Part shown: positions 16,556 through 21,472 of the stretch, piece after piece
How positions within the stretch are numbered: position 1 is the first letter of the stretch
Layout: every line of letters starts with the position of its first letter
Virus record (IMG/VR): IMGVR_UViG_3300005580_000024
Coordinates: 1-23,722 of that record
Origin: a virus
Length of the DNA: 23,722 bases
Reading direction: 5' to 3' (one strand)
Translations under genes and position numbers: made by a program
The notes under the pieces: model-generated
The model's input: only the letters and a program-made list of their open reading frames with translations
The model's database searches: none
Told to the model about the DNA's origin: nothing

Positions 16556-16590
16556 GTTGAAGCCTTTCAAAGTGTTGGTGGAGAATTCGT

Positions 16591-16621
16591 AGTGTGTCAC
16601 ACTTCTTAGTGTTGAACACTA
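16591..16621. promoter_or_regulatory. tandem palindromic operators (AGTGT-N3-ACACT)
   Basis: Two palindromes lie with centres 17 nt apart: AGTGTGTCACACT (16591-16603) and TAGTGTTGAACACTA (16607-16621). Both have AGTGT/ACACT arms around three central bases. They sit in the 86-nt gap between the leftward genes at 16642 and 16555. The second is identical to the site at 16907-16921. About one and a half helical turns separate the two dyads. A dimeric repressor or activator is the simplest reading. Confidence 0.7.
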
Positions 16622-16897: not shown

Positions 16898-16926
16898 ATT
16901 ATATCGTAGTGTTGAACACTATACAT
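16898..16926 (-). promoter_or_regulatory. leftward promoter with embedded operator
   Basis: On the minus strand a perfect TATAAT (16898-16903 on the plus coordinates) lies 17 nt from a weak -35 candidate (ATGTAT, 16921-16926). The palindrome TAGTGTTGAACACTA (16907-16921) fills the spacer almost completely, so a bound protein would block the promoter. It would drive the gene starting at 16842 and those to its left. The weak -35 suggests either an activator or weak constitutive use. A TSS would fall near 16891. Confidence 0.55.
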
Positions 16927-17246: not shown

Positions 17247-17351
17247 TACAATGTTTTGAAACGTGGCTAGGGAATGCAACCCGAAAAGGCGATTCGTTAC
17301 CGCCCTGCCAATGTTTCATCAGTAACGACAACCGACAACGTGAGGTTTAGC

Positions 17352-18101
17352 ATGAAACTTATACCCAAAAATTGGGCTGTATTCCAGCACTACAAAGACC
17401 GCAATCCACCTTGGATAAAACTCCATCGTGAAACTCTAAACGACAGAACATTTATGTGCTTGCCGATTGCTAGCAAGGCGCTAGCGCCATTGATGTGGTT
17501 GCTAGCATCAGAGTCCAAAAATGGTGTTTTTGATGGGTCAGTCGATGACCTCATGTTCAGACTGCATATCACTAAGAAGGAATACGATGATGGTGTTAAG
17601 CCATTGATTGATAAGGGATTCTTTGAGATTGCTAGCGGAGTGCTAGCGGAGTGCTTGCAAGATGCTAGACCAGAGACAGAGACAGAGACAGAGACAGAGA
17701 CAGAGACAGAGACAGAGACAAAGAGAGAGACAGAAGCCAAAAAGTCCACAAGAGGCTCACGCCTCTCTGCTGATTGGGTTTTGCCAAAAGAATGGGCAGA
17801 TTGGGCTAAACAGGAAAGACCTGATTTAGATTTGTGGAGTGTAGGAGAGCAGTTTAGAGATTACTGGAGTGCAAAAGCGGGTTCAGGCTCTACAAAGCTG
17901 GATTGGCAAGCAACATGGCGTAATTGGGTAAGAAACCAAAAGCAAGTGTTTAAACAGGCTGACATTGCTAGAACGACAGTACCATCAAGCTCACAGCGTG
18001 ATCCTGCCCTTGCAAAACTTGATGAAGATTACAAGAATGCCAAGCCAAACCCTGAGATTCTTGCCAAAATTAAAGAAGCACTTAGGGGTAAAGTAGCATG
18101 A
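17352..18101 (+). CDS. replication initiator, lambda O / DnaT-like
   Basis: ATG 17352 (MKLIPKNWAVFQHYKDRNPP) follows GAGG by 6 nt and is preferred over ATG 17274, where AGGGA directly abuts the start; this gives 249 residues. The N-terminal part (IKLHRETLNDRTFMCLPIAS to DKGFFEIASGVL) reads as a winged-helix DNA-binding domain. A linker of eight Glu-Thr repeats follows, and then a C-terminal domain (DWVLPKEWADWAKQERPDLD; LDWQATWRNWVRNQ) of the kind seen in DnaT-like and phage O-like primosome loaders. It would bind the origin and load host helicase. The gene itself carries five GCTAGC sites (17469-17647), as lambda ori lies within O. It is followed without gap by the rest of the replication operon. 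Confidence 0.8.
   Translation: MKLIPKNWAVFQHYKDRNPPWIKLHRETLNDRTFMCLPIASKALAPLMWLLASESKNGVFDGSVDDLMFRLHITKKEYDDGVKPLIDKGFFEIASGVLAECLQDARPETETETETETETETETKRETEAKKSTRGSRLSADWVLPKEWADWAKQERPDLDLWSVGEQFRDYWSAKAGSGSTKLDWQATWRNWVRNQKQVFKQADIARTTVPSSSQRDPALAKLDEDYKNAKPNPEILAKIKEALRGKVA
17469..17647. other. candidate replication origin: GCTAGC iteron-like cluster inside the initiator gene
   Basis: GCTAGC occurs at 17469, 17480, 17501, 17631 and 17642, and I found it nowhere else in the window. Spacings are 11, 21, 130 and 11 nt, close to whole helical turns within each cluster. The last two are an 11-nt tandem repeat (TGCTAGCGGAG twice). The sites are read in two different codon registers (GCT AGC and xG CTA GCx), so protein sequence alone does not explain them. 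Confidence 0.5.
17673..17720 (+). repeat. GAGACA x 8 in-frame microsatellite
   Basis: Eight perfect tandem copies of GAGACA encode (Glu-Thr)8, a flexible acidic linker between the DNA-binding and C-terminal domains of the initiator. The purine-rich tract is right after the GCTAGC cluster. Copy number changes would keep the frame and alter linker length by two residues per unit. Confidence 0.95.
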
Positions 18102-20749: not shown

Positions 20750-21391
20750 TTATGCGGTTTCAGTTTCAAGTGCTTTAACTGTAGGCTTTTTGCACCATGC
20801 GGGAATGCTAGGGTTTAAACAATTATCACGCATCGGCATGATAATACCTACAAATAATTCAGTGCAATCAAGGGCAACAATGCCACTATCAGTGCCTCTT
20901 TGCATAATGGAAACTGCTACCCCTGTAGGCTTTTTAATGCCACTTAAATCACTAGCACAATCAAAAAATGCCATAACGTAATCGGGGTTATAAGTGCTAG
21001 GTTTTATATCAGCATCATCTAATTTGCTAGGCAAAACTCTATCACAATGGGGAAAACTACCATCTAATGCTGAAAATTGCATAGTTGAATTATCGGGTTG
21101 AATCACTGTTATTTTTATGCCATCTACAGTGAAGTGTAGGGTTTCATTACCCTGTTTAGCAGTGCCAAATAGGGTTTTCAGTGCATCATTAGGAATGATT
21201 ACACTGTTTTCACCATTTACAGGGGTTTCATCTATTAAAAGTCTACCTAGGATATGACCATTGGTTGATTCTAAGTATGTTCCCCTGTTATTTTGAACAA
21301 CATGGATACCACACAAATAATAACGAACGTCTTTAATGGCACTGAATCTAGACAATGCTTTCAGTTGTTTGCGTTGAATTGAAAATTTCAT
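20750..21391 (-). CDS. miniature DnaN-like sliding clamp (213 aa)
   Basis: ATG 21391 has an AAAAAGGCTTTAAT leader. Four blocks match the second and third domains of bacterial beta clamp, in order: KDVRYYLCGI (20-29; E. coli QDVRYYLNGM), STNGHILGR (42-50; ATDGHRLA), ALDGSFPHCDRVLP (108-121; VDGRFPDYRRVLP) and IIMPMR (183-188; VVMPMR at the clamp C-terminus). The first clamp domain is absent, and between DRVLP and the block YNPDYVMAFFDCA (like FNVSYVLDVLNAL) some 60 residues of domain three are missing. About 25 extra residues follow MPMR, with Cys and Pro. It may be a small clamp for phage replication or a mimic acting on host clamp partners. No polymerase is in the window. Confidence 0.75.
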   Translation of the reverse strand: MKFSIQRKQLKALSRFSAIKDVRYYLCGIHVVQNNRGTYLESTNGHILGRLLIDETPVNGENSVIIPNDALKTLFGTAKQGNETLHFTVDGIKITVIQPDNSTMQFSALDGSFPHCDRVLPSKLDDADIKPSTYNPDYVMAFFDCASDLSGIKKPTGVAVSIMQRGTDSGIVALDCTELFVGIIMPMRDNCLNPSIPAWCKKPTVKALETETA

Positions 21392-21472
21392 ATTAAAGCC
21401 TTTTTAGTTGAAAATGCCTAGGAAAATGCCTAGGTGATAGGATACTGTTACCAATACCCTATACCCTAGTTT

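Follow-up and report, generated by a model that had tools for sequence, protein, structure and literature searches.

A probable phage replication origin of 11-bp-phased GCTAGC iterons inside the initiator gene

The segment 17458-17735 of the viral DNA analysed here (IMG/VR record IMGVR_UViG_3300005580_000024, 23,722 bp, hereafter the window) is very probably a phage replication origin that lies within the coding sequence of its initiator, the N-terminal domain (N-domain) of which would bind the iterons. The evidence is computational and comprises the sites and their phasing, the conservation of the sites and of an adjoining purine tract at the DNA level, the matching of N-domain and iteron, and the exchange of the whole unit as a cassette; from it we infer protein-DNA binding, IHF binding, melting of the tract, loading of a helicase and firing of the origin. 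In the proposed mechanism, a winged-helix N-domain would contact the palindromic iterons GCTAGC along a single face of the helix (spacings of 11, 21-22 and 32-33 bp), distributed over two arrays about 130 bp apart, between which the DNA may be bent by IHF or a similar host protein; the N-domain/iteron complex would open the DNA at or beside the purine tract abutting array 2, and the C-terminal domain (C-domain), together with the products of the next genes, would recruit the helicase machinery of the host or of the phage. To the idea of an origin, put forward in the original prediction, the present analysis adds the pairing of the arrays, an IHF-like site, a role for the purine tract as a candidate unwinding element and a code linking N-domain and iteron.

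The hexamer GCTAGC occurs exactly five times in the whole window (iterons 1-5 in Table 1) and, as had been claimed, a recount places all of them in 179 nt of the initiator gene (17469-17647), at spacings of 11, 21, 130 and 11 bp, in two codon registers (Ala-Ser and Leu-Ala) and with a purine GAGACA tract directly after them. This inventory stands as far as the exact copies are concerned; it had overlooked three one-mismatch members in the same 11-bp phase, with which array 1 (17458-17506) consists of a GCTTGC and iterons 1-3, and array 2 (17631-17669) of iterons 4 and 5, a GCTTGC and a GCTAGA, four repeats exactly 11 bp apart that end at the tract. The copy number is ordinary for the base composition (shuffled sequences contain 4.27 copies on average, and at least five in 41 of 100); what is unusual is the clustering, five random sites being expected within 179 nt with p ~ 5 x (178/23717)^4 = 1.6e-8, or, by an arithmetic estimate, ~3e-5 once all 2,080 hexamers are allowed for. 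At least three phased repeats lie inside the initiator gene, and the word is rare elsewhere. Between the arrays, 30 of the 74 relatives have an IHF-consensus match at the column where the window has it, whereas the flanks predict 0.03 per 420 bp, and the TTG ATT GAT codons at this place are invariant in 56/56 relatives; since the match, which is absent from most distant relatives, also overlaps codons for conserved protein residues, a function of IHF at 17597-17609 is suggested rather than asserted.

Table 1. Features of the probable origin and of the initiator gene, in coordinates of the window.
Feature	Coordinates	Strand	Remarks
Replication initiator gene, 249 aa from ATG 17352 (probable start)	17352-18101	+	PHROG matches; start codon by comparison
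Putative DNA-binding N-domain, type NTD1, KNWxxFQHYKDRxPPWIKLH	17352-17672	+	Alignment; AlphaFold2 pLDDT 87
C-domain, primosomal/DnaT-like by PHROG name	17748-18101	+	Common to initiators with different N-domains
Exchange cassette: N-domain, iterons and tract	17349-17747	+	Swapped as one unit in close relatives
Degenerate iteron GCTTGC	17458-17463	.	11-bp phase with 17469
Iteron 1 GCTAGC	17469-17474	.	Exact in 53/56 close relatives
Iteron 2 GCTAGC	17480-17485	.	
Iteron 3 GCTAGC	17501-17506	.	21 bp from iteron 2, i.e. two helical turns
Block of low synonymous variation AAAnnnGGTGTTTTTGATGGnTCAnnnGAT between arrays	17517-17546	+	O/E 0.47 over 10 codons; alone not family-wise significant
IHF-consensus match TAAGCCATTGATT (reverse complement of WATCAANNNNTTR) between arrays	17597-17609	-	Full match
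Iteron 4 GCTAGC	17631-17636	.	
Iteron 5 GCTAGC	17642-17647	.	
Degenerate iteron GCTTGC	17653-17658	.	11 bp past iteron 5
Degenerate iteron GCTAGA	17664-17669	.	11 bp past GCTTGC 17653; adjoins tract
(GAGACA)n purine-rich tract, encodes Glu-Thr linker	17671-17735	+	Candidate unwinding or strand-loading element

The initiator is composed of a predicted winged-helix N-domain, a Glu-Thr linker and a primosomal-type C-domain; its N part matches PHROG phrog_26426 'replication protein' (9e-36) and its C part PHROG phrog_3992 'primosomal protein' (2.4e-17), while searches of Pfam and NCBIfam returned no family for it, the Pfam search giving a match neither to Phage_rep_O (lambda O) nor to RepA_N (PF06970). 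In the AlphaFold2 model (pLDDT 87), the elements of the N-domain follow a winged-helix-like order, and the best four PDB structure matches of the model are RepA_N initiator N-domains, at a weak Z of 5.9-6.6 (next, 4.7); Foldseek is likewise weak (E about 1), a PDB sequence search with the N-domain profile gave chance-level matches only, with no RepA_N chain among them, and no relationship to RepA_N is claimed. The gene had been taken to start at 17274; the start is probably ATG 17352 instead, because 17258-17348 is kept as DNA and its frame differs among the relatives. Conservation of this stretch before the start codon extends to relatives whose N-domains differ and in which it is read in other frames; the stretch is possibly a leader or a regulatory element. 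Elsewhere in the window, a palindrome resembling an operator (TCGTAGTGTTGAACACT and variants) is present three times at 16587-16620 and 16904-16921; its copies flank a divergent region upstream of the initiator and look like repressor operators. The gene at 20750-21391 on the minus strand encodes a protein similar to a phage DNA polymerase sliding clamp (PF02767, 3e-6); its best PHROG, 3007, bears the name RusA-like resolvase, and one of these names is likely wrong. A direct repeat of GAAAATGCCTAG is found just upstream of the clamp-like gene (21410-21434).

Eighty relatives were collected from IMG/VR, and the codon analysis was based on the 56 distinct sequences that share the N-domain type of the window. 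The 13 codons overlapping the five sites show synonymous variation at 0.43 of expectation (n=56; amino-acid-matched permutation p = 5.5e-4), while a family-wise sliding-window test is significant at the purine tract and its left edge only and does not reach significance for the hexamer clusters taken singly. Two or more exact GCTAGC are retained in 70 of 74 non-redundant relatives (fewer than two in the other four), and the three close relatives lacking exact copies altogether (L015, L018, L021) carry one-mismatch hexamers at the same 11-bp positions; both comparisons to which the original prediction had pointed, that of the sites with synonymous change and that of their retention where the protein is conserved, came out in its favour, the repeats being conserved at the DNA level beyond the constraint of the protein. 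Its proposed analysis of GC skew did reveal a local cumulative minimum near 17.0-17.5 kb, and phage PhiPLPE has one near 0.5 kb, close to its probable origin; neither provides independent evidence, because gene direction turns there.

The purine tract shows zero synonymous variation among the 56 close relatives, and a purine tract above the 95% flank level follows the ladder of sites in 93% of the NTD1 regions and in 100% of those with the sister N-domain NTD2 (see below). In GC-rich phages, Arg is encoded by AGA in 52/63 tract codons compared to 29/423 outside, and Thr by ACA in 58/58 compared to 33/243; judging from these codon counts, the tract is kept at the DNA level and not by the protein alone. 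It represents a candidate unwinding or strand-loading element; since local duplex stability, computed in the search for an A+T-rich unwinding element, presents no clear minimum at the tract, which is not A+T-rich, the opening of the DNA at this place is proposed in conditional terms.

The same N-domain is present in the phages PhiPLPE, Cr-LKS3 and phiV208 and in prophages of 48 genome contigs from Proteobacteria, Planctomycetes and other phyla (some being metagenome bins, the taxon of which may be wrong); with the PhiPLPE N-domain as query, no match was obtained in IMG/VR and none in plasmids. Nearly all of the distant loci contain a GCTAGC ladder; their GC content spans 35-67%, the sites use all three codon registers, and the rest of each locus has 0-3 copies. 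In PhiPLPE, every one of the 5 GCTAGC in 47,453 bp is inside the initiator gene. When all hexamers were scanned over the 74 non-redundant NTD1 regions, GCTAGC and its overlap CTAGCA ranked first: GCTAGC has 283 sites, compared to 3.8 expected from the flanks (~74-fold) and 52.6 from synonymous shuffles, distributed over registers 0, 1 and 2 as 125, 11 and 147, the most frequent spacing of consecutive sites being 11 bp (76 times), followed by 21-22 and 32-33; in 135 further cases, a one-mismatch site is 11 bp away from an exact one. On our reading of the sequences, the strongest single argument for the sites acting as DNA is provided by the Massilia-type prophage loci (Massilia, Noviherbaspirillum and Collimonas; L096, L103, L104, L106, L112 and L117, around 2480-2900), in which the N-domain is a separate gene, encoding a stand-alone protein of ~97 aa, and the ladder is mostly downstream of its stop codon, followed by AGAAGAG purine repeats. 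These post-stop sites are non-coding in L106 and L117; elsewhere they fall in the start of the next gene, which in L096 is a DEAD/ResIII-type helicase with iterons in its first codons. A protein-level reason for the sites, already considered unlikely in the original prediction, is excluded as their main cause because they occupy all three registers, occur at 35-67% GC and extend past the stop codon in the Massilia-type loci. In a Bradyrhizobium vignae locus (L132, around 2501-2800), the N-domain is frame-broken and the GCTAGC ladder is still kept.

The iteron word depends on the type of N-domain, as observed when the 74 NTD1 regions are compared with 24 of type NTD2 and 25 of type NTD4. Regions encoding the sister N-domain NTD2 (NWxxFQHFKDR; L063, L083 and L375 included) contain GATATC in place of GCTAGC, the distance between neighbours being 11 bp in 41 of 45 pairs, in all registers and directly before a similar purine tract; Xanthomonas phage PBR31 is an annotated example, with GATATC at 1459, 1470 and 1481 of L375. 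At least two GATATC are found in 24/24 NTD2, 0/74 NTD1 and 0/25 NTD4 regions, and at least two GCTAGC in 70/74 NTD1, 4/24 NTD2 and 0/25 NTD4 regions. The NTD4 N-domains are DUF1376 (Pfam 1.3e-23; loci L059, L078 and L299-L343), and their regions carry 11-bp repeats of the type GGGCGTTGAAC (CGTTSAAC), then AACCAAT-like 7-bp repeats, which suggests DUF1376 as a candidate iteron-binding initiator domain and CGTTSAAC as its candidate iteron, a third class less fully tested than GCTAGC and GATATC. These comparisons of close and distant relatives as a whole can be taken as strong evidence that the GCTAGC sites hold DNA-level information tied to the initiator N-domain.

N-domain, iterons and tract are also exchanged together. 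In five close relatives (L059, L078, L054, L060 and L077), homology to the window ends at 17347-17349 and resumes at 17747-17748, with another N-domain, ladder and tract in between, breakpoints 17348/17748 excising exactly the N-domain, the iterons and the tract and leaving the C-domain; in the reverse case (L013, L070), N-domain, ladder and tract are the same and the match is lost from 17710-17716 into the C-domain. A precedent is the natural plasmid chimera pPR9, in which the N-domain and the origin have been swapped and the C-domain kept (PMC5703833). A wider interpretation, to which we give an even chance of being correct, is that of a plug-in origin system of phages, in which each of at least three N-domains (NTD1/GCTAGC, NTD2/GATATC and DUF1376/CGTTSAAC) would read a word of its own in 11-bp phase; the tract behind the word, of low complexity and strand-asymmetric (GAGACA or AACCAAT), would open without A+T-richness. 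The units of N-domain, iterons and tract would be swapped as one cassette onto a common primosomal C-domain, changing the replication specificity of a phage at a stroke, and DUF1376 would acquire a function.

Other roles can be envisaged for sites placed in this way. In particular, they might be in-gene operators through which the N-domain represses its own operon, with no origin being involved: a winged-helix N-domain can be a repressor, palindromes are typical of operators, and what the data contain are DNA-level sites matched to the N-domain, replication being a further step of interpretation. Such a role is nevertheless improbable, given that the sites are 100-300 bp inside the gene, that iteron origins are laid out in this way, as long phased ladders beside a conserved tract of low complexity, and that the C-domain is primosomal and has helicase loaders or helicases as neighbours in other phages; promoter signal in the region is not above chance, and the promoter/operator reading was rejected on this ground, although autoregulation could coexist with an origin. 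Centromeres and pac sites are repeat arrays too, and the segment is a recombination module; yet a partition, packaging, recombination-hotspot or RNA-level element residing by chance in the initiator gene is very unlikely, as the arrays track the type of initiator N-domain and not terminase or Par genes, and an RNA element would not be expected to survive in coding as well as in non-coding DNA and at the same time to change its word according to the N-domain.

A constraint on the protein or on codon usage, of which the sites would be a by-product through conserved Ala-Ser and Leu-Ala residues, might be read into the position of sites 1 and 3, within the conserved ASKALAP..LLAS stretch, and into the fraction of sites surviving synonymous shuffling (52.6 of 283); it is contradicted by the existence of non-coding sites and, besides the registers and the range of GC content reported above, it has to face an 11-bp phase that is no multiple of a codon and the different hexamer of NTD2 at the same phase, so that hardly any credence is left to it. 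Finally, an overlapping antisense ORF (17390-17749, 119 aa), which is open in the window, might lie behind the low synonymous variation; none of the 56 relatives has any alternative frame that stays fully open along the 321 nt of the N-domain segment, and an overlapping antisense gene, rejected on this count, has a vanishingly small probability.

Few phage origins are known beyond those of the model phages. If the interpretation as an origin is correct, the origins of many environmental and prophage genomes, including those of phages of Bradyrhizobium, Mesorhizobium, Massilia, Xanthomonas and Iodobacter, could be read from the iteron word that matches the initiator N-domain; the sister N-domains, which share a spacing and differ in their word (GCTAGC or GATATC), would offer a natural system for the choice of DNA by winged-helix initiators and bear on the co-evolution of origin and initiator when both share the same bases. 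The conserved purine tract would call into question the rule of the A+T-rich unwinding element, and DUF1376 would gain a testable role.

Iteron origins within genes are a known kind; in the literature searched, the coverage of which leaves out most subscription papers, no description was found of this initiator family, of its 11-bp words or of the N-domain/iteron code, and PHROG 26426 and PHROG 3992, matching the N and C parts, are protein clusters only, with no origin or iteron described. A close parallel in layout is the lambda ori in gene O of lambdoid and Stx phages, in which the iterons are within the coding sequence of the initiator that binds them and a special tract abuts them (PMC7466680); relatives such as Cr-LKS3 also have the lambdoid gene order. 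Differences are the palindromic hexamers in 11-bp phase, as opposed to the longer iterons of lambda, the purine-rich and not A+T-rich tract, the location of the sites partly within the sequence encoding the putative DNA-binding domain itself, and an initiator devoid of sequence match to the lambda O family; the suggestion of an unrelated iteron doing the same job as in lambda fits these observations, the nearest fold, at a weak match, being that of RepA_N plasmid initiators. In the RepA_N plasmids pSK41 and pTZ2162, the origin is located inside the rep gene, where the N-domain binds Rep boxes, the linker is coded by the origin and the C-domain is primosomal (DnaD-like there, primosomal by PHROG name here) (PMC5703833); apart from the weakness of the fold similarity, the present system differs in giving no Pfam RepA_N match, in its iterons and in belonging to phages of Proteobacteria and not to plasmids of Firmicutes. 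The replisome organiser gp38 of phage SPP1 likewise has direct repeats and an unwinding element in its own gene (oriL in gene 38; PMC6316719), unlike the present case in having A+T-rich unwinding elements and a second origin, oriR, away from the gene. As the sequence matches that define lambda O and RepA_N were sought and not found, membership in neither is assigned; the best explanation is that this family, absent from Pfam and NCBIfam, would function like lambda ori/O and like RepA_N of pSK41 while standing apart from both.
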